From the NCBI RefSeq assembly GCF_004123845.1, contig NZ_NBDP01000003.1:248001-312000 (forward strand): a DNA stretch of 64,000 nucleotides, in the 5' to 3' direction. Under the pieces are notes generated by a model. It saw only the letters and a list, made by a program, of their open reading frames with translations. It made no database searches and was not told the origin of the DNA. This document shows, piece after piece, positions 49,308 through 63,592 of this stretch (positions within the stretch are counted from its first letter, which is position 1; every line of letters starts with the position of its first letter). Source of the stretch: Allobosea sp. Tri-44 (GTDB lineage Bacteria; Pseudomonadota; Alphaproteobacteria; Rhizobiales; Beijerinckiaceae). The position numbers and the translations under genes are program-made.

Positions 49308-50531
49308 TCAGGCGGCGAATTCGGAACTGCTCGCGTCTCGCACCGTCGTCAGCGCATCGAATGCGTGGATCCAGCCGAAATCGTCCGGGAACCTCGACAC
49401 CCGCCGATCGCGATCCGCCAAGGCCGAGCTTTCGTCGGGGAGGTGCAGCAGGTCGTTCGTCGCGCGCGAGCTGAGCTGAATGATCCTCGTTCGCGACCGC
49501 CGAAGCCGCTGATAGCGCGACATCATGGCTTCGATCTCATCCCGCCGCGTCGACGTCAGCATTTCGGCGAGCGTGATCGCATCTTCGATGGTCGTGTTGG
49601 CACCTTGGCCATGGTGCGGCCCCATTGCATGGGCGGCATCGCCGAGCAGAACCGCACGGCCTCGCCACCACTGTCGCAGTGGCCGTACCGTGAATAGCGC
49701 CCATCGCACGCGATGCTCGACCGCGGCAACCATTTCAGTGACGGCCGGGTGCCAACCCTTAAATGGCGCCAGAGCGGTCGATGGCTCGACAGGAGCCTGC
49801 CAGCCCTCATGCGACCATGTCTTGGGACCTTCGACGACAGCGAAGAAGTTCACATCCTGAGCCCGTTCGCCGATCGCATAATGTAGCAGATGAGCGCCGG
49901 GGCCCATCCAGAACTGGATGGCCTGTGGGTCGGGAAGCGACGGCAATTGCTTGGCAGGCACAATGCCGCGAAATGCACTGGTTCCCGAGTAAATGGTCTC
50001 TTCTCCGCCGATCACATATCGGCGGACCAAGGAACGGACCCCGTCCGCGCCGATGACCAAATCTGCCTCTGCGATGCGGCCATTGGCGAAACTGAGGCTC
50101 ATGATCTGATCGTGCTCGGAGAGCTCGGTCAAGCGGTGGCCGAGTTGAAGACCCGCTCCCGCCAGCGCGCCGGACAAAATCCGCTGGAGGTCGGCGCGAT
50201 GAATTCCGAAATAGGGTGCTCCGAAACGCTTCTGATAAGCGAGATCATCGTGAACGGGGAAAGCTGCGATGCGATGCCCCTTCCGCCAGTCGCGATAGAT
50301 CAGTTCACTAGGCTCGGTTGAACAGCCGGCGATGAGGTCGAGCACGCCAAGACGACGCAGTTCCCGCGTCGCGTTGGCCGAGAGCGCCACCGCTGCCCCG
50401 ATTTCACTGAGTTCGGACGCCTGTTCGTAAACGGTCGCCTCAATGCCGCGCTGTCGCAATGCAAGCGCAAGCGTCAAGCCACCGATCCCTCCCCCGACAA
50501 TGGCAATCCGCAGGTTCCGGCTGTTCTTCAT
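49308..50531 (-). CDS. FAD-dependent aromatic monooxygenase (salicylate-hydroxylase-like)
   Basis: The protein has 407 residues of the group A flavoprotein monooxygenases. FAD motif IAIVGGGIGGLTLALALRQRG, the DG motif VIGADGVRSLVRR, and VLLGDAAHAMGPHHGQGANTTIEDA. It resembles salicylate 1-hydroxylase and 3-hydroxybenzoate 6-hydroxylase; which ring it acts on cannot be told. It lies 0.4 kb from catR, so salicylate to catechol would feed catA directly. That link is inference. Confidence 0.85.
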   Translation of the reverse strand: MKNSRNLRIAIVGGGIGGLTLALALRQRGIEATVYEQASELSEIGAAVALSANATRELRRLGVLDLIAGCSTEPSELIYRDWRKGHRIAAFPVHDDLAYQKRFGAPYFGIHRADLQRILSGALAGAGLQLGHRLTELSEHDQIMSLSFANGRIAEADLVIGADGVRSLVRRYVIGGEETIYSGTSAFRGIVPAKQLPSLPDPQAIQFWMGPGAHLLHYAIGERAQDVNFFAVVEGPKTWSHEGWQAPVEPSTALAPFKGWHPAVTEMVAAVEHRVRWALFTVRPLRQWWRGRAVLLGDAAHAMGPHHGQGANTTIEDAITLAEMLTSTRRDEIEAMMSRYQRLRRSRTRIIQLSSRATNDLLHLPDESSALADRDRRVSRFPDDFGWIHAFDALTTVRDASSSEFAA

Positions 50532-50955: not shown

Positions 50956-51870
50956 TTACGTGTCGTTCTTGTTCTTGACCGACTGGTTCCACTCATCGAA
51001 TTCGCGCACCAGCTTGGTCAGCGCCGCGAGCAGAGCGGAATTGTCGTTCTTGCGGTGGCTCATGATGATCGGCGTCATCATGCGTGGTTCATCGAGATCG
51101 ATGTAACGGATATCGTCGCGGCCGAGGCGTCTTACCGAGGCCGGAACGAGGCAGACTCCGCCACCCGAGGCCACCAGGCCGAGCGCCGTCTGCACCTCCT
51201 TCGCCTCCATGCCGATGGTCGGCTCGACACCGGCATCGCGATAGAATGACAGGACCTGATCGGCATAGCTCGGCCGCGGCGTTTTCGGGTAGAGGATCAG
51301 CGGCTCGCCGGCGGTCTGCCTGAGCCTAATCTTGCCCTCGCTGGCCGCCAGCTTGTGGCCGAGCGGGACGGCGAGGCACAGTGTTTCCTCGCGAATGACC
51401 CGGCGCGTGATCCGCTCGTCGTCGAAACGCAGGCGGCCGAAGCCGACATCGATGCGGCCGTCCTTGAGCGCAGCGACCTGCTCCATTGTGGTCAGCTCGA
51501 CCAGTTGCACTTCCGCTCCCGGCGCGATGATGCGGAAGCGCCGGATCAACTCGGGCAGCGCGTCGTAGAGCGTCGAGGCGACGAAGCCGATATTGAACTG
51601 CAAAACCATGCCTTTGGAGATCCGCTGCGTCATCGCGCGCATCTCGTCGATCCGCTGCAGGATCTGGCGACTTTGCTCGAAAAGGTATCGACCCGGTTCG
51701 GTCAGGGTGATCGGGCGGCCCCGGTCCAGTAATCTGACGCCCAGTTCCTCCTCGAGCTGCTGGACCTGACGGCTCAGCGGCGGCTGGGCGATATTGAGCT
51801 TTTCTGCGGCGCGGCTGAACGAGCCTTCCGCCGCGACGGTGGTGAAGTAGCGCAGATGGCGCAGCTCCAT
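50956..51870 (-). CDS. catR: LysR family regulator, CatR/CatM/BenM-like
   Basis: The protein has 304 residues. The HTH is MELRHLRYFTTVAAEGSFSRAAEKLNIAQPPLSRQVQQLEEELGVRLL (residues 1-49), the near-invariant start of the CatR/CatM/BenM subfamily. The effector domain has FNIGFVASTLYDALPELIRRFR and ELTTMEQVAALKDGRIDVGFGRL. Muconate (and in BenM benzoate) is the usual inducer. It is divergent from catB with an exact ATAC-N7-GTAT site at 51896-51910. A similar site lies before the ABC operon at 58760. The ATG at 51870 is chosen. Confidence 0.92.
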   Translation of the reverse strand: MELRHLRYFTTVAAEGSFSRAAEKLNIAQPPLSRQVQQLEEELGVRLLDRGRPITLTEPGRYLFEQSRQILQRIDEMRAMTQRISKGMVLQFNIGFVASTLYDALPELIRRFRIIAPGAEVQLVELTTMEQVAALKDGRIDVGFGRLRFDDERITRRVIREETLCLAVPLGHKLAASEGKIRLRQTAGEPLILYPKTPRPSYADQVLSFYRDAGVEPTIGMEAKEVQTALGLVASGGGVCLVPASVRRLGRDDIRYIDLDEPRMMTPIIMSHRKNDNSALLAALTKLVREFDEWNQSVKNKNDT

Positions 51871-51895
51871 GCTCGTTTCCCCGGCGAGGCCGTCG

Positions 51896-51930
51896 ATACC
51901 TCCTGGGTATGAAAATAGACACAATCAATC
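51896..51930 (+). promoter_or_regulatory. CatM/BenM-type operator and promoter of catBCA-benABCD
   Basis: ATAC-CTCCTGG-GTAT (51896-51910) is an exact ATAC-N7-GTAT site, the known consensus for CatM/BenM. It is followed by GAAAATAGACACAATCAATC, which is nearly repeated at 58775-58794. It lies 71 bp before the catB GTG start (51982). Confidence 0.82.
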
Positions 51931-51981
51931 CTGTGCAGCAAGCGGGGCGAATTCTATCGTCGGTCCATCTCAGCAAGGGCC

Positions 51982-53157
51982 GTGACCTTGACGATTGCAG
52001 CCACCCGGATAGAGCAGGTCGAGACGTTTCTGGTCGATCTTCCGACCATTCGTCCGCACCAGCTGTCGATGACGACGATGCAGGGCCAGACCCTGATGAT
52101 CGTCAGGATCGGTACCTCCGACGGCATCGTCGGCGTCGGCGAGGGGACGACCATCGGCGGGCTCGCCTACGGACCCGAGAGTCCGGAGGGCATGAAGCTC
52201 GCGATCGACACCTATTTCACGCCGATCCTGCTGCAGAGCGACCCCAATCGCATCGGCTTGACGATGGCTGCGATTGCCAAGGCCATTCAGGGCAACAATT
52301 TCGCCAAGAGCGCGGTTGAGACTGCCCTGCTCGATGCCTTGGGCAAGCGCACCGGCCTGGCGGTTTCGGAGCTTCTCGGCGGGCGCTTCCATGGCCGTTT
52401 GCCCGTCGCCTGGACGCTGGCGAGCGGCGACACCAGCCGCGATATCGCCGAAGCGGAGCAGATGCTCGAGCGGCGCCGGCACAACATCTTCAAGCTCAAG
52501 ATCGGCCGTGGCGATCCGCGCGAGGACATCGCCCATGTGGCAGCGATCAAGCAGGCCTTGGGCGGCCGCGCCAGTGTCCGCGTCGACATCAATCAGGCCT
52601 GGAGCGAGACGACCGCCTCGGCTTGCCTGCCGATGCTGGCCGACGCCGGCGTCGATCTGATCGAGCAGCCGATCGCGCTGAAGAACCTCAAGGGGATGGC
52701 GCGCTTGGCGCGCGAGACCTCGGTCGCGATCATGGCCGACGAGGCGCTGAACGGCCCCGAGACGGCGTTCCAGATCGCCTCGCTCGCCGCCGCGGACGTG
52801 TTTGCCCTGAAGATCGAGCAGTCGGGCGGACTCTACGCCGGCGCCAAGGTGGCGGCGATCGCCGAAGCCGCCGGGATCGGCCTTTATGGCGGCACGATGC
52901 TGGAGGGCGCGGTCGGGACGATCGCGTCTGCCCAGCTCTTCTCGACGATCGCAAAGCTGGAATGGGGCACCGAGCTGTTCGGGCCGCTGCTGCTGACCGA
53001 GGAAATCCTCGAGGAGCCGCTGGACTACAGCGAATTCAGTCTCGGCGTTCCCACCGGGCCGGGCCTCGGCATCGCGCTCGACGAGGCGCGCATCGCGCGC
53101 TTCCGCCGTGACCGTGCCGAACGCTCGGTCCATCTCGTGCTGAAGACGGGGAGCTGA
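51982..53157 (+). CDS. catB: Muconate cycloisomerase
   Basis: The protein has 391 residues in the enolase superfamily. The Lys-x-Lys catalytic motif is in IFKLKIGRGD, the metal site includes VRVDINQAW, DLIEQPI and IMADEAL, and GGTMLEGAVGTIASAQLF is near the C terminus. It cyclises cis,cis-muconate to muconolactone. The GTG at 51982 is used (AAGGGCC upstream). First gene of the catBCA-benABCD operon; catC starts 4 bp after its stop. Confidence 0.95.
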   Translation: MTLTIAATRIEQVETFLVDLPTIRPHQLSMTTMQGQTLMIVRIGTSDGIVGVGEGTTIGGLAYGPESPEGMKLAIDTYFTPILLQSDPNRIGLTMAAIAKAIQGNNFAKSAVETALLDALGKRTGLAVSELLGGRFHGRLPVAWTLASGDTSRDIAEAEQMLERRRHNIFKLKIGRGDPREDIAHVAAIKQALGGRASVRVDINQAWSETTASACLPMLADAGVDLIEQPIALKNLKGMARLARETSVAIMADEALNGPETAFQIASLAAADVFALKIEQSGGLYAGAKVAAIAEAAGIGLYGGTMLEGAVGTIASAQLFSTIAKLEWGTELFGPLLLTEEILEEPLDYSEFSLGVPTGPGLGIALDEARIARFRRDRAERSVHLVLKTGS

Positions 53158-53161
53158 CGGG

Positions 53162-53452
53162 ATGCTGTTCCATGTCGAGATGGAGGTTCGGCTGCCGCAT
53201 GACATGCCCGCGGAGAAGGCCGACGCGTTAAAGAAGACCGAGCGCGAGCGCGCCCACGAATTGCAGGCGTCCGGCGCCTGGCGCCATCTCTGGCGCGTCG
53301 CCGGCCGCTACGCCAATGTCAGCGTTTTCGACGTCTCGGGCGCCGAGGAGCTTCACCAGATCTTGTCGACGCTGCCGCTCTTCCCCTTCATGGCGATCAG
53401 CGTGACCCCGCTCTGCCGCCATCCCTCCTCGATCCGCGAGGATGACCGCTAG
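53162..53452 (+). CDS. catC: Muconolactone delta-isomerase
   Basis: The protein has 96 residues, exactly the family size. The sequence begins MLFHVEMEVRLPHDMP, has ERERAHELQASGAWRHLWRVAGRYANVSVFDV in the middle, and LPLFPFMAISVTPLCRHPSS at the end. It converts muconolactone to 3-oxoadipate enol-lactone. It lies between catB and catA. Confidence 0.97.
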   Translation: MLFHVEMEVRLPHDMPAEKADALKKTERERAHELQASGAWRHLWRVAGRYANVSVFDVSGAEELHQILSTLPLFPFMAISVTPLCRHPSSIREDDR

Positions 53453-53511
53453 CCGTTCTACCCATTCAAGCCGGCCGCCAAAGATGGCCGCTTCAACACG
53501 AGGGAAACGCC

Positions 53512-54441
53512 ATGCCTGCCAATCTGATCTCGAAGACCGACATGAAGGCGCTCGCCGCGAAGGCGGCCGGCCTCGACCAACCCGGCGGCGATCCGCGCGT
53601 CAAGGAGGTCGTGAACCGGCTGCTCTATCGACTGATGCAGGTCATTGACGAACTCGACGTCTCGATGGACGAGTTCTGGGCCGGCGTCGGCTATCTGGGA
53701 GAGGCGGCCAAGGCGAACGAGCTCGGCCTCGTCGTGCCAGGCATCGCGCTGGAGCATTTCCTTGATCTTCGCCTTGACGAGGCCGAGCGCCTGGCCGGTC
53801 TCGACGGCGGCACGGCCCGCACGATCGAGGGGCCGCTCTATATCTCCGACGCGCCGCTGTGCAAGCACGAGGCGCGTCTCGACGACGGCACCGACGACGG
53901 CGAGATCCTGTTTATGGAAGGGCAGGTGTTCGACACCAAGGGCCGCCCGGTTCCCGGCGCAATCGTCGATGTCTGGCACGCCAATTCCTTCGGCTTCTAT
54001 TCGTTCTTCGGGCCGCCGCAGTCGCCCTACAATCTGCGCCGCCGGATCGAGACCGACGCCGAGGGCCGCTACCGCTTCCGCTCGATCATGCCCTCCGGCT
54101 ATGGCTGCCCGCCGGGCTCCAACACCGAGAAGCTCCTGGCGATGATGGGCCGCCATGGCCAGCGCCCGGCCCACATCCATTTCTTCGTCACCGCCGATGG
54201 CTACCGGCAGTTGACGACGCAGATCAACATCGACGGCGACAAGTATCTCCACGACGATTTCGCCTTCGGCACGCGCGACGATCTCATCCCGCCGGTCGAG
54301 CGTGTCACCAATGCGGCCGAGATTCACAAGGCCGGGCTCAACAAGCCGTTCGCCCGCATCGAATTCGACTTCAAGATGACCCGCGAGCAGGCCGGCGCAC
54401 CGAGCACCATCGTGCGCCGCGAGCACGCCGTCGCCGCCTGA
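53512..54441 (+). CDS. catA: Catechol 1,2-dioxygenase
   Basis: The protein has 309 residues of the intradiol dioxygenases. The Fe(III) ligands are in the expected motifs: Tyr in SPYNLRRRI, Tyr in PSGYGCPP, and two His in RPAHIHFFV. The N-terminal helical dimerisation domain is present (VKEVVNRLLYRLMQVIDELDVSMDEFWAGV). It cleaves catechol to cis,cis-muconate. Confidence 0.97.
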   Translation: MPANLISKTDMKALAAKAAGLDQPGGDPRVKEVVNRLLYRLMQVIDELDVSMDEFWAGVGYLGEAAKANELGLVVPGIALEHFLDLRLDEAERLAGLDGGTARTIEGPLYISDAPLCKHEARLDDGTDDGEILFMEGQVFDTKGRPVPGAIVDVWHANSFGFYSFFGPPQSPYNLRRRIETDAEGRYRFRSIMPSGYGCPPGSNTEKLLAMMGRHGQRPAHIHFFVTADGYRQLTTQINIDGDKYLHDDFAFGTRDDLIPPVERVTNAAEIHKAGLNKPFARIEFDFKMTREQAGAPSTIVRREHAVAA

Positions 54442-54516
54442 GCGAAATCGAGAACGGCAAGGTCGCGCCAGCGACGCGGCCTTGCTGCAACAAGATCAAG
54501 ACGGGGAGTTGGAACC

Positions 54517-55893
54517 ATGCTGGATGCCGTGATCACCCGACTGGAATCCTCCGTCGAGGATAATCGTGAGACGGGCAGCTTTCGCTGCCGGCGCGACATC
54601 TTCACCGATCCCGAGCTGTTCGAGCTGGAGATGAAGCATATCTGGGAGGGCAACTGGGTCTATCTCGCTCATGAGAGCCAGATCGCGAACAACAACGACT
54701 ACCTGACCAGCTTTATCGGCCGGCAGCCGATCGTGATCAGCCGGGATCGCCAGGGCCAGTTGCACGCCTTCCTGAACGCCTGCTCGCATCGCGGCGCCAT
54801 GATCTGCCGGCACAAGCGCGGCAACAAGTCGACCTATACCTGCCCGTTCCATGGCTGGACCTTCAACAATACCGGCAAGCTGCTGAAGGCGAAGGATCCC
54901 GACGGAGCCGGCTATCCCGAGACCTTCAACAAGAACGGCTCGCATGATCTCACCAGGCTCGCCCGCTTCGACAACTATCGCGGCTTTCTGTTCGGCAGCC
55001 TGAACCCGGATGTGAAGCCGCTGCCGGAGCATCTCGGCGAAGCCGCCAAGATCATCGACCTGATCGTCGACCAGTCGCCGGACGGGCTCGAGGTCCTGCG
55101 CGGCTCCTCCTCCTATATCTATGACGGCAACTGGAAGCTGCAGACCGAGAACGGCGCGGACGGCTATCACGTCTCCTCCGTGCACTGGAACTACGCCGCC
55201 ACCACCAATCAGCGCAAGGCGGCGGTCGCCGCTGCCGCGGGCAAGGACGATGTCCGCGCCATGGACGCCGGCGGCTGGGCCAAGAAGGGCGGCGGCTTCT
55301 ACTCCTTCGAGAACGGCCACCTCCTGCTCTGGACCAACTGGTCGAACCCGGAGGATCGCCCGCTCTATGAGCGCCGGGCCTCGCTGGTCGAGCAGTTCGG
55401 CGCGCCGCGTGCCGACTGGATGATCGAGAAGAGCCGCAATCTCTGCCTCTATCCGAACGTCTATCTGATGGACCAGTTCTCGTCGCAGATCCGGATGTAC
55501 CGGCCGATCTCGGTCGACAAGACCGAGGTGACGATCTACTGCATCGCGCCCAAGGGCGAGAGCGCCGAAGCGCGCGCCCATCGCATCCGGCAATACGAGG
55601 ACTTCTTCAACGCCTCCGGCATGGCGACGCCGGACGATCTCGAGGAATTCCGCTCCTGCCAGATCGGCTACGGCGCCCGGAGCGCGGTCTGGAACGACCT
55701 CTCGCGCGGCGCCACCCATTGGATCGAAGGCGCAGACGCCGATGCGCAGGTCATCGGTCTCGAACCCCTGCTATCGGGCGCCAAGACCGAGGATGAGGGC
55801 TTGTTCGTGGTCCAGCATCGCTACTGGAAGGACGCGCTGGTCGCCGCGCTGCGCAAGGAAGCCGAAGCCGGTTTGCGGCAGGCGGCCGAGTGA
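54517..55893 (+). CDS. benA: Benzoate 1,2-dioxygenase large (alpha) subunit
   Basis: The protein has 458 residues. Rieske ligands C89, H91, C109 and H112 are in CSHRGAMIC and CPFHGW. The mononuclear iron site is in [16 protein letters not shown] (D-x2-H-x4-H) with a distal Asp further on. It starts 75 bp after catA. It cis-dihydroxylates benzoate with BenB and reductase BenC. Confidence 0.96.
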
Positions 55894-55946
55894 GGCCCTG
55901 ACGCCGCGGCCCGCTTATCCAAGAAAAACGACAAGGGAGGATCGCC

Positions 55947-56471
55947 ATGTCCGCCATGCTGAAGACCGTCGCCAAGACCAGGGTCGTGACGATCGAGGAG
56001 GTCCAGGCCTTCCTCTATGCCGAGGCGCGTGCGCTTGATGATCGCGACTGGGACACCTGGCTCGCCTGTTACGCGCCGCAGGCGACGTTCCACATGCCGG
56101 CCTGGGACGATGACGACACGCTGACCGAGGATCCGCAGAAGGAGATCTCCCTGATCTACTACGGCTCGAAGCAAGGGCTCGAGGATCGCGTCTTCCGCAT
56201 CAGGACCGAGCGCTCGAGCGCGACCTCGCTGCCGGAGCCGCGCACCTCGCACAACATCTCGAATGTCGAGATCGTCGAACAGGGCGAAGGCCATGCGGAG
56301 ATCCGGTTCAACTGGCTGAATCTGAGCTTCCGCTACAAGACGACCGATAGCTATTTCGGCACGTCCTACTACACGCTCGACACATCCGGTGACGGGTTCA
56401 AGATCACGGCCAAGAAGGTCGTTCTGAAGAACGACTACATCCACCACGTGGTGGATATCTATCATATCTGA
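55947..56471 (+). CDS. benB: Benzoate 1,2-dioxygenase small (beta) subunit
   Basis: The protein has 174 residues. The ring-hydroxylating beta-subunit pattern is clear: EEVQAFLYAEARALDDRDWDTWLACYAPQATFHMPAW, and ERSSATSLPEPRTSHNISNVEIVEQ. Its role is structural (alpha3-beta3 hexamer). The ATG at 55947 follows GGAGG. Confidence 0.95.
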   Translation: MSAMLKTVAKTRVVTIEEVQAFLYAEARALDDRDWDTWLACYAPQATFHMPAWDDDDTLTEDPQKEISLIYYGSKQGLEDRVFRIRTERSSATSLPEPRTSHNISNVEIVEQGEGHAEIRFNWLNLSFRYKTTDSYFGTSYYTLDTSGDGFKITAKKVVLKNDYIHHVVDIYHI

Positions 56472-56588
56472 CCACAATCCCCGGGCGGCCGGGGCGCTAC
56501 GCCTTCAGGGCGGACGCCTTTGCGCGGGTCTATGGAGGCAGCGCGTCACGGGTCGATGGACCGGCGGAGCCGCTGCTGGAGGACGATC

Positions 56589-57599
56589 ATGACGCATCGC
56601 ATCGCCTTGAATTTCGAGGATGGGGTCACCCGCTTCATCGAGGCGCGCCCGGACGAGCTCGTCGCCGACGCCGCTTATCGCCTGGGCCTCAATATCCCGA
56701 TGGATTGCCGCGACGGCGCCTGCGGCACCTGCAAATGCCATTGCGAATCCGGCCGCTACACGCTCGGCAGCTTTATCGACGACGCGATGACCGATGAGGA
56801 GGCCGAGCAGGGCTATGTCCTGACCTGTCAGATGAAGGCGCAATCGGACTGCGTCATCAACATCCCGGCCTCGTCTTCGCTCTGCAAGGTCAAGCCGTCG
56901 TCGCTGCCGGCGACAGTCGCCGAGATCCGCCAGCTCTCCCTGTCGACGATCGGTTTTTCTCTCGCGGTCGCGGGCGAGCCGCTGTCCTACCTGCCCGGCC
57001 AATATGTCAACGTCTCCGTCCCGGGCACGACCCAGACGCGATCCTATTCCTTCTCCTCGATGTCGCGGGACGGGGCGGTCGAGTTTCTCGTCCGCAATAT
57101 TCCCGGTGGGCTGATGTCGAGCTATCTCGCAAAGCGCGCTGCGCCGGGCGACGGCCTCACCATCACCGGGCCGGTCGGCAGCTTCTATCTGCGCGAGGTC
57201 AAGCGGCCGCTGCTGTTCCTGGCCGGCGGCACCGGGCTCGCGCCGTTCCTCGCCATGCTCGACGAGTTGAAGAACATCGGCAGCGACCAGCCGATCCACA
57301 TGATCTACGGCGTCACCAGCGACGCCGATCTCGTCGAGACCGACAAGCTGACGGCCTTCGCGGCGCAGATCGCCGGCTTCACCTATTCGACGATCGTGGC
57401 CGATCCTGCGAGCGGCCACGACCGCAAGGGCTATGTCACGAACCATATGCCGGACGCCGTGCTGCATGGCGGCGATGTCGACCTCTATCTCTGCGGTCCG
57501 CCGCCGATGGTCGATGCCGTCCGCACGCATCTTGCGGAGCGCGGCGTCGTGCCGAAGAGCTTCCATTTCGAGAAGTTCTCGCCGTCGGAGGGCAAATGA
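56589..57599 (+). CDS. benC: Benzoate 1,2-dioxygenase reductase
   Basis: The protein has 336 residues. The N-terminal plant-type [2Fe-2S] ferredoxin is CRDGACGTCKC plus a later Cys in YVLTCQ. The FAD domain has RSYSFSS and the NAD domain GGTGLAPFLAML with LYLCGPPPMVDAV. The ATG at 56589 (MTHRIALNFEDG) is correct; the reading upstream is not conserved. It passes NADH electrons to BenAB. Confidence 0.95.
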   Translation: MTHRIALNFEDGVTRFIEARPDELVADAAYRLGLNIPMDCRDGACGTCKCHCESGRYTLGSFIDDAMTDEEAEQGYVLTCQMKAQSDCVINIPASSSLCKVKPSSLPATVAEIRQLSLSTIGFSLAVAGEPLSYLPGQYVNVSVPGTTQTRSYSFSSMSRDGAVEFLVRNIPGGLMSSYLAKRAAPGDGLTITGPVGSFYLREVKRPLLFLAGGTGLAPFLAMLDELKNIGSDQPIHMIYGVTSDADLVETDKLTAFAAQIAGFTYSTIVADPASGHDRKGYVTNHMPDAVLHGGDVDLYLCGPPPMVDAVRTHLAERGVVPKSFHFEKFSPSEGK

Positions 57600-58384
57600 T
57601 GGCCCCGGCCATGCGGTTTTCCCGCAAGAGCATGGTCGTGACCGGCGCCGCCCAGGGCATCGGCCGGCAGGTCGCGATCGAGGCGGCGGCCGAGGGCGCC
57701 AGGCTGACGCTCGTCGACCGCTCGCCTCTCGTCGAGCAGGTCGCGAGCGAGATCCGCGACGGCGGCGGCGAGGCGATCGGCATCGTCGCCGATCTCGAGA
57801 GTTGGGACGCCAATGTCGAGGTCATGGCGGCGGCCAGCCGGACCTATCGCGCGATCGACGTCCTCGTTACCAATGTCGGCGGCGCGATCTGGATGAAACC
57901 CTTCCAGCATTTCGACGAGAAGCAGATCGTCGCGGAAATTCAGCGCTCGCTCTTCACGACGCTCTGGGGCTGCCGGGCCGTGCTGCCCCATATGCTCGAA
58001 CAGGGGCGCGGCGCCATCGTCAACGTCTCATCAATCGCGACCAAGGGCGTCAACCGCGTGCCCTATTCGGCCGCAAAGGGCGGGGTCAACGGGCTGACCG
58101 CGGCGCTGGCCTTCGAACTCGGAACCAAAAATATCCGGGTCAATGCGGTCGCGCCGGGCGGCACGACCGCGCCGCCGCGCCAGGTGCCGCGCAACACCGA
58201 GACGCAGGGCGCGCAGGACAAGGCCTGGGTTCAGGAGGTCGTCGACCAGACCGTCGAATCCAGCCACATGAAACGCTACGGGCTGCTGCGCGAGATGTCG
58301 GCGGCCATCCTGTTCCTCGCCTCGGACGCCGCTTCCTACATCACCGGCACGGTGCTGCCGGTCGGCGGCGGCGACCAGGGCTGA
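57596..58384 (+). CDS. benD: cis-1,2-dihydroxycyclohexadiene-1-carboxylate dehydrogenase
   Basis: The protein has 262 residues of the SDR family. Cofactor motif VVTGAAQGIGRQVA, then VTNVGG, catalytic Ser in VNVSSIA, and Y-x-x-x-K in VPYSAAKGG. It oxidises the benzoate cis-diol to catechol with loss of CO2. It overlaps the benC stop by 4 bp. Last gene of the ben operon. Confidence 0.95.
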   Translation: MMAPAMRFSRKSMVVTGAAQGIGRQVAIEAAAEGARLTLVDRSPLVEQVASEIRDGGGEAIGIVADLESWDANVEVMAAASRTYRAIDVLVTNVGGAIWMKPFQHFDEKQIVAEIQRSLFTTLWGCRAVLPHMLEQGRGAIVNVSSIATKGVNRVPYSAAKGGVNGLTAALAFELGTKNIRVNAVAPGGTTAPPRQVPRNTETQGAQDKAWVQEVVDQTVESSHMKRYGLLREMSAAILFLASDAASYITGTVLPVGGGDQG

Positions 58385-58524
58385 AGAGCGCCGTCATGAG
58401 GCTATCGCGATCACGGACTCCGGTGCCGGGGAGCCCGGCTGCCAAGCCTATACGGCGTCCGGCGCGCCCGCAGAGGCGGCGTCGATCTTTCACGCACAGA
58501 GCATAGTGCATTCAGATTGAATCG

Positions 58525-58650
58525 AGGGACGGGCCATCCCGGACAAGCGGCGAAGCCGCGCCGATCCGGGATCCATGCCGGAACCTTCCCGACATGGGGT
58601 CAGGCATGGATCCCGAGTCTCTCTGTGGTCGCCCGGGACGACCCCGGACA
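58525..58650. repeat. Alphaproteobacterial dispersed palindrome
   Basis: CGGGATCCATGCC (58567-58579) and GGCATGGATCCCG (58603-58615) are perfect 13-bp arms; GCGGC-GAA-GCCGC lies just before. The GGGCCATCCCGGACAAGCG opening is typical of the dispersed repeats found in many Hyphomicrobiales. It may terminate benABCD transcription. Confidence 0.65.
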
Positions 58651-58759
58651 TCAGCCTTCAAGCAAGCTGCCTGACGATACTTATGCGCCATAAATACAAC
58701 CTGACGCCTGCTCCAACATCCGGCAGGCGCAGGGCCTTTGCGGAGTTGGCGAAGCGGCT

Positions 58760-58794
58760 ATACCCGCAAGGTATCAAAATACACTCAATCGATC
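58760..58794 (+). promoter_or_regulatory. Second CatM/BenM-type operator, upstream of the ABC importer
   Basis: ATAC-CCGCAAG-GTAT (58760-58774) is an exact ATAC-N7-GTAT site. The following CAAAATACACTCAATC matches the corresponding stretch of the catB promoter with few changes, and both run on to GATCCTGT / AATCCTGT. It lies 150 bp before the binding-protein start (58925). It is strong evidence that CatR (or BenM-like) also controls this importer. Confidence 0.78.
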
Positions 58795-58924
58795 CTGTCC
58801 TTACCGAGTGGGCCTCCCTAGCGTGACGGTCGGGAAGAAACGCTTGCCGCACGAGGAGCGCCGGTCATGCCGGACGCCCCTCCCGGTGGCGAAAAACGCG
58901 CAACAGTCGCTGGAGGAGAGTTTC

Positions 58925-60139
58925 ATGTCGCAATCGATCGTTTCGTCGCGCCCGCTTGATCGCCGTCGCTTCCTGATGGGGTCGGCCGGTGCCCTGGCTG
59001 CCGGCGCCGCGTTCCGGTTTCCGACGCCGGCGATCGCGCAGCCCGCGCCGCTCAAGGTCGGCTTCATGCTGCCCTATTCGGGCACCTTCGCGAAGCTTGG
59101 CAAATTCATCGATGACGGCTTCCGCCTCTATGTCGAGCAGCAGGGCGGCTCGCTCGGCGGCCGTCCGATCCAGTTCGTCCAGGTCGACGACGAATCCAAG
59201 CCCGAGAGCGCGACCGACAACATGAATCGCCTCGTCGGCCGCGAGAAGGTCGATGTCGTGGTCGGAACCGTGCATTCCGGCGTCGCCATGGCGATGGTCA
59301 AGGTTGCCCGCGACACCAACACCATGCTGATCATCCCCAATGCCGGCGTGAACGAGGCCACCGGCCCCCTCTGCGCGCCCAATATCTTCCGGACCTCGTT
59401 CTCGAACTGGCAGGTCTGCGAGCCGATGGGCAAGGTGATGTTCGACGAGGGCCGGCGCAACGTGGTGACGATCACCTGGCGCTACGCTGCCGGCCAACAG
59501 ATGGTCGGCGCCTTCGCCGAGGGCTTCACCAAGGCCGGCGGCAAGGTCGTCGAGGAGCTGGCGCTGCCCTTCCCGGAGGTCGAGTTCCAGGCCCTGATCA
59601 CCCGCATCGCGACGCTGAAGCCCGACGCCGTCTTCGCCTTCTTCGCGGGCGGCGGCGCCGTGAAGTTCGTCAAGGACTATGCCGCGGCCGGCCTCAACAA
59701 GTCCGTTCCGCTCTATGGCGCGGGCTTCCTGACCGATGGCACGATCCCGGCACAGGGCGAGGCTGCCAACGGCATCAAGACGACGCTGCATTACGCCGAC
59801 AATCTCGACAACGCCGCAAACAAATCCTTCCTGACCGCCTTCAAGGCGAAGACCGGGCAGGACGGCGATATCTATGCGGTGCAGGGTTTCGATGCGGCTG
59901 CGCTGATGGCGGCGGGACTTTCCGCCACGAAGGGAGATTGGGGCGCACGAGCGCAGGTCGCCGCGGCCATGCAGGCGGCTAAATTTGACAGCCCGCGCGG
60001 CCCTCTGAGCTTCAGCAAGGCGAACAATCCCGTCCAGAACGTCTATCTGCGCGAGGTCCGCAACGGCCGCAACGAGCTCGTCTCGGTCGCCGGTCAGGCT
60101 GTGAGCGATCCGGCGCGCGGCTGCCGCGCTCAGAGCTGA
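58925..60139 (+). CDS. ABC transporter substrate-binding protein, Tat-type signal
   Basis: The protein has 404 residues. The N terminus has a twin-arginine signal (LDRRRFLMGSAGALAAGAAF) ending in PAIAQ. The mature type I binding fold shows VGFMLPYSGTFAKLGKFIDDGFRLYVEQQGG and VVVGTVHSGVAMAMVKVA. The ATG at 58925 gives the intact signal. By operator and position it likely binds benzoate or a related aromatic acid, not a branched-chain amino acid. It leads livH/M/G/F-type genes. Confidence 0.9.
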   Translation: MSQSIVSSRPLDRRRFLMGSAGALAAGAAFRFPTPAIAQPAPLKVGFMLPYSGTFAKLGKFIDDGFRLYVEQQGGSLGGRPIQFVQVDDESKPESATDNMNRLVGREKVDVVVGTVHSGVAMAMVKVARDTNTMLIIPNAGVNEATGPLCAPNIFRTSFSNWQVCEPMGKVMFDEGRRNVVTITWRYAAGQQMVGAFAEGFTKAGGKVVEELALPFPEVEFQALITRIATLKPDAVFAFFAGGGAVKFVKDYAAAGLNKSVPLYGAGFLTDGTIPAQGEAANGIKTTLHYADNLDNAANKSFLTAFKAKTGQDGDIYAVQGFDAAALMAAGLSATKGDWGARAQVAAAMQAAKFDSPRGPLSFSKANNPVQNVYLREVRNGRNELVSVAGQAVSDPARGCRAQS

Positions 60140-60157
60140 GTGCCGCCGCCAACCGGG

Positions 60158-60205
60158 GGAGGGCGCGCGCTGAACCTCCCGCACGCGCGCCCTCCGACTT
60201 TTTTT
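60158..60205 (+). terminator. Intrinsic terminator-like attenuator after the binding-protein gene
   Basis: GGAGGGCGCGCG (60158-60169) pairs perfectly with CGCGCGCCCTCC (60184-60195), followed by GAC and TTTTTTT. This is a full rho-independent terminator in form, located between the binding-protein gene and the permease genes. It should keep permease expression below that of the binding protein. Confidence 0.82.
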
Positions 60206-60222
60206 CCCCAAGGAGCATCGCC

Positions 60223-61089
60223 ATGGATGCGATAACCTTCGCCGTTCAGCTTCTGAATGGCGTCCAGTACGGCCTTGTGCTGTTTCTCGTGGCGAGCGGC
60301 CTGACGCTGGTCTTCGGCATCCTCGGCGTCATCAACCTCGCCCACGGCGCGTTCTACATGCTCGGCGCCTATCTCGCCTGGGCAATCGCGTCCTATACCG
60401 GCAGCTTCGCGCTGGCGCTGGTCGGAGCGCTGGCGATCTCGTTCGCGCTCGGCGTCGCGCTCGAAGAGGTCTTCGTCAAACGCATGATCGGGCGCGACCA
60501 TCTCGCCCAGGTGCTGCTGAGCTTCGGGCTGATCCTCGTGATCGACGAGCTCCGCCAGATCCTGTTCGGCAAGGACGTTCACTCGGTCGCGCCGCCCTCC
60601 TGGCTGCAGGGCTCGATCCAGCTCACCGAGGTGTTGTCCTATCCGGTCTACCGGATCGCGCTCTGCCTGGTGTGCCTCGTGCTGGCGGTGGCGATTTTCT
60701 ACGTCATCCAGCGCACGCGGCTCGGCATGATCATCCGAGCCGGCGCCGAGAATCGCGACATGACACGTTGCCTCGGTATCCCGTTCGATCTGGTCAATCG
60801 CTATGTCTTCGCCGGCGGGATCGCGCTCGCCGGCCTTGGTGGGATTCTCGTCGCGCCGATCTCCACCGTCTTCCCCGGCATGGGCGACGGCATGCTGATC
60901 CTCTCCTTCGTAGTGGTCGTTCTGGGCGGCATCGGCTCCGTCACCGGCGCGGCGATCGGCGCGCTGCTGATCGGCCTCACCGACACCTTCGGCAAGGTCT
61001 TCTTCCCGCAGGTCTCATCGATCCTGATCTATGTGCTGATGGCCGGCGTGTTGCTCTGGCGGCCGAACGGCTTGCTCGGCAAGGCGTGA
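60223..61089 (+). CDS. livH: ABC permease, LivH type
   Basis: The protein has 288 residues and about 8 membrane helices. It starts FAVQLLNGVQYGLVLFLVASGLTLVFGILGVINLAHGAFYMLGAYLAW and has the later motif SFVVVVLGGIGSVTGAAIGALLIGLTDTFGK. The ATG at 60223 follows AAGGAG. Confidence 0.92.
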   Translation: MDAITFAVQLLNGVQYGLVLFLVASGLTLVFGILGVINLAHGAFYMLGAYLAWAIASYTGSFALALVGALAISFALGVALEEVFVKRMIGRDHLAQVLLSFGLILVIDELRQILFGKDVHSVAPPSWLQGSIQLTEVLSYPVYRIALCLVCLVLAVAIFYVIQRTRLGMIIRAGAENRDMTRCLGIPFDLVNRYVFAGGIALAGLGGILVAPISTVFPGMGDGMLILSFVVVVLGGIGSVTGAAIGALLIGLTDTFGKVFFPQVSSILIYVLMAGVLLWRPNGLLGKA

Positions 61090-61099
61090 GGAGGCTGCA

Positions 61100-62131
61100 A
61101 TGATCCGATCCGCAACACCCGTGACCATGATCGCCATCGCCGCCGCTTTGGCCTTGGCGCTGGCGCTGCCGGTGATCGCGCCGGGCTACTACGTCCAGTT
61201 TGCCTCGAAGGCGATGCTGATGGGGATGCTGGCGCTCTCGCTGAACCTGATCGTCGGCTTCGGCGGGCTGGTCAGCCTGTGCCATGGCGCCTTCTTCGGG
61301 CTTGCCGGCTACATGCTGGGCTTCCTGACGCCGGACAGCGGCGGCGCCTCGCTCTGGCTGTCCCTGCCGGTCGCGCTTCTGACCGTCGCGGCGGTCGCCG
61401 CGATCATCGGCGCGCTGTCGCTACGCACGCGCGGCATCTACTTCATCATGGTCACGCTCGCCTTCGGCGAGATGCTCTTCTACCTCTTCCACGACACCAG
61501 GATCGGCGGCGGTTCGGATGGCATGTATATCTATTTCAAGCCAGAGATCGCGATCGCCGGCTCGGCCCTGCTCGATCTGGAGAAGTCGAATACCTTCTTT
61601 TACGTCGCGCTGGCCTGCCTCGTCGGCACGGCGCTGCTGATCCGGGGGCTCGTCCGCTCGCCGTTCGGCCATGCGCTGGTCGCCGCGCGGGATAACGAGC
61701 GCCGGGCGCTCTCGCTGGGCTTTCCCGTCTTCCGCCTTCGCCTCGCCGCCTTCGTGATCTCGGCGATGATCGCGGGTCTCGCCGGCTATTTCTCGGCGGC
61801 GCAGTTCGGCTTCGTCGCGCCGCAGCTGCTCGGCTGGCATCTCAGCGCGACGATGCTGGTCATGGTCGTGCTCGGCGGCATGAGCTCGATCCTGGGTCCG
61901 CTCGTCGGCGCGCTCGCCCTGATCGGTCTGGAGGAGGTGCTGAAATCCTCCTTCGAGCATTGGAAGCTGATCAAGGGCCTCATCATCATCGGGCTGGTCT
62001 TCGCGCTGCCGGGCGGGCTGCAGCAGCTTGCTGCCATGCTCCAGACAGGATCCTCGCAGGTGCCCGACCTTGGCGCCGACGTCGCCGAACCCGTCCCCGC
62101 GCCGGCCGGAGAGGCGCGCAGCCATGTCTGA
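61100..62131 (+). CDS. livM: ABC permease, LivM type
   Basis: The protein has 343 residues, about 9 membrane helices. The typical LivM segment MLALSLNLIVGFGGLVSLCHGAFFGLAGYMLGF and ATMLVMVVLGGMSSILGPLVGALALIGLEEVLK are present. It ends 8 bp into livG. Confidence 0.92.
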   Translation: MIRSATPVTMIAIAAALALALALPVIAPGYYVQFASKAMLMGMLALSLNLIVGFGGLVSLCHGAFFGLAGYMLGFLTPDSGGASLWLSLPVALLTVAAVAAIIGALSLRTRGIYFIMVTLAFGEMLFYLFHDTRIGGGSDGMYIYFKPEIAIAGSALLDLEKSNTFFYVALACLVGTALLIRGLVRSPFGHALVAARDNERRALSLGFPVFRLRLAAFVISAMIAGLAGYFSAAQFGFVAPQLLGWHLSATMLVMVVLGGMSSILGPLVGALALIGLEEVLKSSFEHWKLIKGLIIIGLVFALPGGLQQLAAMLQTGSSQVPDLGADVAEPVPAPAGEARSHV

Positions 62132-62885
62132 GATCCTGCTCAAGGCGACGGCGCTGGAAAAGCGCTATGGCGGTCTGAAGGCTGTGTCGGGCGTCTCGAT
62201 CGACGTCCATCGCGACGAGGTCCACGCCGTCATCGGCCCCAATGGCGCGGGCAAGTCGACGCTCATCAACCTGCTCTCCGGGGACGTCTCCGTCAGCGCC
62301 GGTGCCGTGATGCTCGGCGAGCGCGACATCACCAATCTCGCGCCGGATCGGCGCGCCCGCGCTGGCCTCGGCCGCTCCTACCAGAAGACGACGATCTTCC
62401 AGAATTCCACCGTGTTCGAGAATGTGCGCCTCGCTGCCCAGGCGCATGGCGGCCAGGCGCTGCGGCTATTCGGCAGCGTCGTCAGAGACAGCAACGTCAA
62501 CGCTCGCGCCGATAGCGCGATCGCCGAGGTCGGCCTCGCGCGCCGCGCCAGCACTATCGCGAAGCTGATGAGCCATGGCGAGCAGCGGCAGCTCGAAATC
62601 GCCATGGTGCTCGCGACGGAGCCGAAGCTCATCCTTCTCGACGAGCCGCTCGCGGGGATGGGCCAAGCCGAGGCCTCCAGCATGATCGCGCTGATCGGCC
62701 GCCTGAAGTTCGGGCGCGCCATCCTGCTGGTGGAGCACGACATGGACGCCGTCTTCGCGCTGGCGGACCGGCTGACGGTCATGGCGGACGGCGCGGTGAT
62801 CGCGGCCGGTTCGCCCGGGCATGTCCGCAACCATCCGGCCGTCCGTTCCGCCTATCTCGGCCACGATCATGGAGCGGCGGCATGA
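62124..62885 (+). CDS. livG: ABC ATPase, LivG type
   Basis: The protein has 253 residues. Walker A GPNGAGKST, signature MSHGEQRQLEIAMVL (a relaxed LSGGQ), Walker B LILLDEPLAGMG, and the LivG-type VRSAYLGHDH ending. The ATG at 62124 overlaps livM by 8 bp. Confidence 0.9.
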   Translation: MSEILLKATALEKRYGGLKAVSGVSIDVHRDEVHAVIGPNGAGKSTLINLLSGDVSVSAGAVMLGERDITNLAPDRRARAGLGRSYQKTTIFQNSTVFENVRLAAQAHGGQALRLFGSVVRDSNVNARADSAIAEVGLARRASTIAKLMSHGEQRQLEIAMVLATEPKLILLDEPLAGMGQAEASSMIALIGRLKFGRAILLVEHDMDAVFALADRLTVMADGAVIAAGSPGHVRNHPAVRSAYLGHDHGAAA

Positions 62886-63592
62886 ACGCGCTGTTGTCCG
62901 TTTCGGACCTGAGGAGCTTCTACGGTGCCAGCCAGGTCCTGCACGGGGTCGACCTCGTGGTCAGGCCCGGCGAGCAGATCGCCCTGATCGGGCGCAACGG
63001 CATGGGCAAGACGACCCTGCTGAAGTCGATCGTCGGGCTCCTGGCCGATCGGCGCGGGCAGATCAGCTTCGCGGGATCCGACACCTGCGGCGCGAGGCCG
63101 GAAGACATCGCCGGCAAGGGCATGGCCTATGTGCCGGAAGGGCGCGGCGTCTTCGGCTCGCTCTCGGTGGTCGAGAATCTGCTGATGGCGGCGCGCGCCG
63201 GCGTCTCCGGCTCCCGGCGCTGGACGATCGAGCGCGTCTTCGAGGCCTTCCCGCGCCTGCATCAACGGCGTGGCAATGGCGGGCACCAGCTCTCGGGCGG
63301 CGAGCAGCAGATGCTCTCGATCGGGCGCGCCCTGATGACCAATCCCGACCTCATCCTGCTCGACGAGGCGACAGAAGGGCTGGCCCCGCTGATCGCGCAG
63401 GAAATCTGGCGGACGCTCGGCGTGATCCGCTCGGAAGGCATCGCGACGATCGTGGTCGACAAGGACTTCCGCGCCCTCGCCAAGGTCGCCGACCGCATGG
63501 TGATCATGGCGAAGGGCGAAATCGCCTTCGACGGTAGCCCTGGCGACCTTCTGGCCGATCCTGCCATTCTGGAACGGAATCTGGGCATCTGA
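62882..63592 (+). CDS. livF: ABC ATPase, LivF type
   Basis: The protein has 236 residues. Walker A GRNGMGKTT, signature LSGGEQQMLSIGRAL, Walker B LILLDEATEGLAP. It overlaps livG by 4 bp. It completes the aromatic-acid importer operon. Confidence 0.9.
   Translation: MNALLSVSDLRSFYGASQVLHGVDLVVRPGEQIALIGRNGMGKTTLLKSIVGLLADRRGQISFAGSDTCGARPEDIAGKGMAYVPEGRGVFGSLSVVENLLMAARAGVSGSRRWTIERVFEAFPRLHQRRGNGGHQLSGGEQQMLSIGRALMTNPDLILLDEATEGLAPLIAQEIWRTLGVIRSEGIATIVVDKDFRALAKVADRMVIMAKGEIAFDGSPGDLLADPAILERNLGI

Follow-up and report, generated by a model that had tools for sequence, protein, structure and literature searches.

A 64,000 bp stretch of the Allobosea sp. Tri-44 genome (contig NZ_NBDP01000003.1, positions 248,001 to 312,000; "the window" below) carries a cluster of catechol and benzoate genes, catBCA-benABCD, with a divergent gene for a CatM/BenM-type LysR regulator (CatR) on one side and a five-gene Liv-type ATP-binding cassette (ABC) importer operon on the other, and the cat-ben cluster and the importer operon are each preceded by a copy of the same promoter. 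We consider it very probable, from comparison of sequences, that these elements form a two-promoter CatR regulon in which one regulator switches on benzoate catabolism together with a Liv-type ABC importer for benzoate. Bacterial benzoate uptake is usually credited to proton symporters, and ABC importers found near benzoate genes have so far been predictions (PMC6449761, excerpts); an importer governed by the regulator of the muconate type that serves aerobic catabolism would couple uptake to degradation in a clean and testable way. The component parts of such a system are already known, but a CatR regulon that reaches, through a second complete promoter, to a benzoate importer of the Liv type appears to be new.

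Two exact ATAC-N7-GTAT dyads, the predicted CatR recognition sites, lie on the forward strand at 51896..51910 in the catB promoter (ATACCTCCTGGGTAT) and at 58760..58774 in the importer promoter (ATACCCGCAAGGTAT), where the original prediction had placed them, and none of 100 dinucleotide-shuffled versions of the window contained two such sites. The 6.05-Mb genome contains 3 bare dyads against 6 reversed controls, so the dyad alone is weak evidence. The third genomic palindrome (C34:229705), considered as a further regulon member, was rejected; it is without the extended module described here and lies between a GntR-like and a peptide-binding-protein-like open reading frame (judged by eye). Each dyad in the window opens a 65 bp promoter module in which a second, T-N11-A dyad starts 19 bp downstream and is followed by CCTGT and by TAnCnT at +59 to +64. 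In the catB promoter these are ATAG-N7-CAAT with its CCTGT block (51915..51935, forward strand) and a −10-like TATCGT (51955..51960, forward strand), and aligned with them in the importer promoter are ATAC-N7-CGAT with its CCTGT block (58779..58799, forward strand) and, at identical spacing, a −10-like TAGCGT (58819..58824, forward strand). The likeness after the dyads extends further than the 20 or so bp originally noticed, with matches, counted from the start of each dyad, at 31 of the first 39 bp and at 42 of 68 bp overall. A weak similarity had also been claimed before the dyads (GGCGAGGC/GGCGAAGC), and this did not hold up: the two agree in register at 6 of 30 bases, and across 30 aligned promoters from 16 loci the 30 bp preceding the first dyad hold only 0.22 bit per column, compared with 1.41 bit in the first dyad itself and 1.55 bit from +15 to +38.

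Those 30 promoters were selected for carrying the module, so figures taken from them describe it and do not test it. The weaker T-N11-A site downstream of the recognition dyad, a feature of CatM/BenM-type promoters, is present in 29 of the 30, as is each of T59, A60 and T64 in the −10-like element, and a single fixed spacing of recognition dyad, second dyad and −10 runs through them all. If TAnCnT is the −10 element, the first dyad would be centred near −64 and the second near −45, which is the usual layout for LysR activators. A 39 bp core pattern (26 specified bases, ≤3 mismatches allowed; written after the alignment had been seen) finds only the 51896 and 58760 places in the Tri-44 genome, and two copies in each of two genus-mates, G008 and G066, with no match for the reversed controls. 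When 150 genomes were surveyed (67 of the genus, Tri-44 included), the module was found in seven, G000 (Tri-44), G008, G066, G045, G050, G053 and G057, with exactly two copies in each and again no reversed control; four of the seven played no part in the writing of the pattern and give a freer test. The promoter sequences, their conservation and their specificity within the genome are direct observations.

Importer loci were collected by searching with the binding protein in 150 related genomes (146 matched; the nine nearest loci besides the window were used) and in genome contigs (best 80 of 81 loci), and the 89 loci less three duplicates (L053, L050 and L086, on the same contigs as L035, L036 and L037), plus the window, gave 87 for scoring. 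Their neighbours are box genes in 45 (counting every locus that holds a member of the boxA, B, C or R families), cat-ben genes in 18 and ben genes without catB in 5; the other 19 were left unassigned, two of them being cat-ben loci truncated at a contig end. Of the 18 loci with linked catB and ben genes, 9 have an exact dyad in the 500 bp before the binding protein gene, 1 has a degenerate one (L104, 6 of 8 letters) and 8 have none; the two cut loci (L045 and L047) show benD and then an exact dyad. There are thus 12 loci of the double type, 11 with an exact and 1 with a degenerate importer-side dyad, and in the 10 of them where the catB side is visible its dyad is always exact. No importer-side dyad was found in the 44 box-linked loci with upstream sequence, in the 5 loci with ben genes and no catB, in one bclA locus or in the 16 other unassigned loci (two of these 16 without upstream sequence). 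A weight matrix built from ten catB promoters, with the tested locus left out, gives the region before the importer 36.5 to 67.5 bits in the 12 double-type loci and −5.5 bits or less in the 72 other loci having upstream sequence. The difference between cat-ben loci (9/18) and box loci (0/44) gives p = 2.4e-6 in a Fisher test that ignores relatedness; a second such test (10/10 versus 0/44) was set aside, its groups having been picked by outcome. Conservation of the paired promoters in 12 distinct loci strongly supports the earlier proposal that CatM/BenM-type operators would tie this importer to the cat-ben genes.

A binding-protein tree (86 rows, one more having been lost to the requirement for at least 330 amino acids and no stop; midpoint root) places the box-linked L036 and L049 within a 13-row set that holds ten double-promoter rows (support 97/95), while the double-promoter L047 and L051 fall outside that set and the Rhizobium-type rows make up one clade (100/100). 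Because of where L036, L049, L047 and L051 are placed, promoter control appears to be tied less to the descent of the importer than to the pathway, although the midpoint root and the very long L042 row urge caution. The grouping of L036 and L049, box-linked as they are, with CatR-controlled importers suggests that the importer has moved between regulons, and the whole picture suggests that a single importer family has been attached to the ben-cat pathway under one regulator and to the box pathway under another.

Several points weigh against a CatR regulon that includes the importer. Eight cat-ben loci, from Rhizobium, Agrobacterium and Aminobacter, have no importer-side site, and a genus-mate (G059; L037, contig C353) has a 77% identical importer with neither a benA match nor the module, on a contig of 4126 bases that is too short to show neighbours. 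The 12 double-type loci are related and do not count as separate origins, and some of them supplied the core pattern. The top NCBIfam model for the regulator (50956..51870, reverse strand, divergent from catB) is AlsR at 258 bits (cut-off 430), followed by BenM at 254 and CatM at 251, far below the strict "exception" cut-offs of 600 and 580 that these two models carry. BenM Tyr293 is not recognisable in the regulator, where the surrounding region fails to align. Finally, that the solved protein 4evq/4evr is RPA0668 (HbaE) with 4-hydroxybenzoate or benzoate is a presumption.

The best solved relatives of the regulator are BenM and CatM; 126 of 293 alignment columns are identical to a BenM chain, and BenM residues Ser99, Thr128, Arg146, Arg160 and Glu162 are kept. 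Arg160 is present in 18 of 18 distinct regulator rows (window included), and position 128 is Ser in the Rhizobium-type regulators. According to excerpts of PMC6628147, the benzoate response of BenM depends on Arg160 and Tyr293, and CatM has His160 and Phe293. Since the Tyr293 region does not align, muconate is a safer choice than benzoate for the predicted effector of the Tri-44 regulator.

We infer regulator binding, effector response, induction and transport to be connected as follows. The divergent LysR regulator would bind one type of composite site before catBCA-benABCD and before the ABC operon, made up of a recognition dyad, an activation dyad starting 19 bp downstream and then the core promoter. 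A build-up of muconate, possibly aided by benzoate, would lead it to activate both units, so that benzoate entry and breakdown could increase jointly in a positive loop, and the ABC operon would import benzoate in the manner of HbaE, probably with high affinity.

Might the importer instead be read through from the cat-ben operon, the 58760 palindrome being a chance or decayed copy? The genes are collinear, and in 6 of the 8 Rhizobium-type loci the importer follows benD by 81–143 bp with no site of its own and probably belongs to the cat-ben operon; two Aminobacter loci have a major facilitator superfamily (MFS) gene between benD and the importer (that of L087 resembles the aromatic-acid symporter family at a score below cut-off). 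Against this, in the 12 double-type loci the module stays 110–166 bp before the importer while the distance from benD to the binding protein gene varies from 139 to 2353 bp, and each module-bearing genome has exactly two copies. Some of these gaps hold genes: a BenE-family gene stands just before the importer promoter in L034, L035, L045, L052 and L108 (three of the five proteins were scanned and scored 132.9 to 168.6 bits, NCBIfam cut-off 203.4), and a gene of the 3-oxoadipate:acetyl-CoA acetyltransferase family is present in L043, L044, L045, L104 and L108 (that of L044, the only one scanned, scored 451.5 bits, cut-off 350). The window was searched for a remnant of either gene and the idea was dropped (best tblastn E 0.73); its 540 bp gap contains an intergenic palindromic repeat resembling repetitive extragenic palindromes (58535..58642, no strand assigned; 45 genome matches at E ≤ 0.001, some of which are second arms of one copy) that separates benD from the importer promoter, and a DNA hairpin with z −3.58. 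The near-fixed module distance across large gaps, together with the repeat and hairpin in the window, favours a promoter belonging to the importer itself, and we regard read-through as very improbable. Just as improbable is use of the 58760 promoter by a LysR regulator other than the adjacent one, since all conserved elements are common to the two promoters and the module co-occurs with an adjacent CatR ortholog in 7 of the 7 module-bearing genomes of the genus.

What the importer carries is a separate matter. The best solved relative of its binding protein (58925..60139) is the 4evq/4evr chain, at 422 bits over residues 31–401, and the protein has an N-terminal RR motif that looks like a twin-arginine (Tat) signal (judged by eye) and a predicted structure with a mean pLDDT (predicted local distance difference test) of 87.4. 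The box (benzoyl-CoA) route makes no muconate. The importer family accompanies two routes, ben-cat and box, that share benzoate as their substrate, and for this reason muconate is an unlikely cargo; the original prediction that the protein recognises benzoate, another aromatic acid or muconate can thus be narrowed, with benzoate best supported by the solved match and the box neighbours, and muconate disfavoured. The Liv-type operon is likely a benzoate importer of the HbaE kind with an HbaE-like binding protein. RPA0668 (HbaE) shows a thermal shift of 17 °C on binding benzoate, and it also binds 4-hydroxybenzoate, salicylate and benzaldehyde (PMC3223731, excerpts); R. palustris hbaE, F, G and H transcripts are up by 4.1 to 5.5 log2 units on 4-hydroxybenzoate compared with succinate (PMC6974649, excerpts). 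This wider range of HbaE ligands would also suit a co-regulated importer whose main cargo is another compound, such as muconate, 4-hydroxybenzoate, salicylate or an amino acid, as would the NCBIfam matches, which are confined to models for urea and for branched-chain amino acids and fall below cut-off, and the presence of a salicylate/3-hydroxybenzoate hydroxylase-like gene at 49308-50531. We think such a main cargo unlikely, given benzoate genes of two chemistries as neighbours (cat-ben 18, box 45 and ben alone 5 of 87 loci) and, for muconate, a box route from which none arises; it is partly compatible with benzoate import if benzoate is carried as well. The original prediction left the import role open because there is no benK- or benE-type permease in the cluster. 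This is correct for the window's cluster, but five relatives have the BenE-family gene before the importer promoter (above), and a distant BenE, 25% identical to the L034 protein, is encoded elsewhere in the Tri-44 genome (C45:399103). There are 38 matches to the benK model TIGR00895 elsewhere in the genome, none above cut-off; since L087 and L173 have MFS genes that likewise fall short of it, a benK may still be present there.

The closest known regulon is that of CatM and BenM in Acinetobacter baylyi ADP1, where Site 1 is ATAC-N7-GTAT, a sequence from which Sites 2 and 3 depart slightly (PMC6628147). As there, a LysR regulator is predicted to control ben and cat genes, and an ATAC-N7-GTAT dyad lies between the divergent LysR gene and catB; unlike the ADP1 regulon, for which the excerpts name no Liv-type ABC importer, a second promoter here precedes one. 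The importer itself resembles R. palustris HbaEFGH (RPA0665-0668), a Liv-type ABC importer with benzoate genes nearby whose HbaE binds benzoate and 4-hydroxybenzoate (PMC3223731), but HbaEFGH is set among the anaerobic bad/hba genes according to the same excerpts and those of PMC6974649, whereas the importer of the window adjoins cat-ben. The box-linked ABC system is a predicted benzoate importer without experimental proof and is assigned to BoxR, BenR or AphS in the excerpts of PMC6449761, in contrast to the CatM/BenM-type site found here; the transporters given there for CatR, CatM and BenM are COG3181, COG2271, benK and benE, with no Liv-type ABC system named in those excerpts. In Sulfitobacter, BenM lies beside ben genes and the benzoate transporter is encoded elsewhere (PMC9873259, excerpts). 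Among the matches listed from the open-access literature, judged by titles, abstract openings and excerpts, no paper links CatR, CatM or BenM to a Liv-type ABC importer. Two genomes of other genera, G069 (L164) and G133 (L165), have catR-catBCA-benABCD in the same order as the window with ATAC-N7-GTAT before catB, and their benA is just below cut-off (743.7 and 721 bits); they differ from the window in the sequence after the dyad and in having no importer within the 19.9 kb examined.

Among the 150 genomes benA is above cut-off only in G000, G008 and G066 (3 of 67 in the genus), and all three have the linked importer. The other four module-bearing genomes (G045, G050, G053 and G057; loci L170-L173), each rated 100% complete, have a regulator 72–73% identical to that of the window beside one module, which stands before pcaD and a gene for an MFS protein of the aromatic-acid type; their other module stands before catB-catC-catA-benD and a gene for the acetyltransferase. 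In L173, the only one of the four scanned for family names, pcaD and BenD are above cut-off, and the MFS protein (294 against 418.6) and catA (384 against 392) are below it. For benA these four genomes give only weak Rieske-type matches (best E 3.3e-28), for BenB no match, and for BenC distant matches with ≤30% identity where most of the length is covered. In the genomes of this genus that carry it the module is paired, with one copy preceding a transporter unit in 7 of 7 genomes. One could speculate that the paired CatR promoter works as a plug-in cassette by which a single transporter unit is coupled to catechol breakdown. The unit would be the ABC benzoate importer in genomes with benABC, and a symporter of the MFS for aromatic acids in the four genus-mates that have catBCA-benD without benABC; these may feed on benzoate cis-diol leaked by neighbours, which they would import and oxidise with their orphan BenD, all under one switch. 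We give this idea little weight.

The genes of the window run from the divergent LysR gene through catB-catC-catA-benA-benB-benC-benD (51982-58384) to the five-gene Liv-type operon (58925-63592), all but the first on the forward strand. Muconate cycloisomerase (catB, 51982..53157; TIGR02534, 547.9 bits), muconolactone isomerase (catC, 53162..53452; TIGR03221), catechol 1,2-dioxygenase (catA, 53512..54441; TIGR02439), benA (54517..55893; TIGR03229), benB (55947..56471; TIGR03232), benC (56589..57599; NF040810) and benD (57596..58384; NF040811) are all above their NCBIfam cut-offs, which confirms the original gene calls. The Liv-type (HAAT) importer set is complete by Pfam: the benzoate-type binding protein (Peripla_BP_6) is followed by a LivH/UrtB-type permease (60223..61089) and a LivM/UrtC-type permease (61100..62131), both BPD_transp_2 with NCBIfam matches below cut-off, and by a LivG-type ATPase (62121..62885; ABC_tran and BCA_ABC_TP_C) and a LivF-type ATPase (62882..63592; ABC_tran). 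No box genes, the mark of a BoxR regulon, were found by name or translation among the genes on either side of the importer operon. Beyond the regulator gene, on the reverse strand (49308-50531), lies a gene for a flavin adenine dinucleotide (FAD) monooxygenase that resembles 3-hydroxybenzoate 6-monooxygenase or salicylate hydroxylase at scores below their cut-offs.

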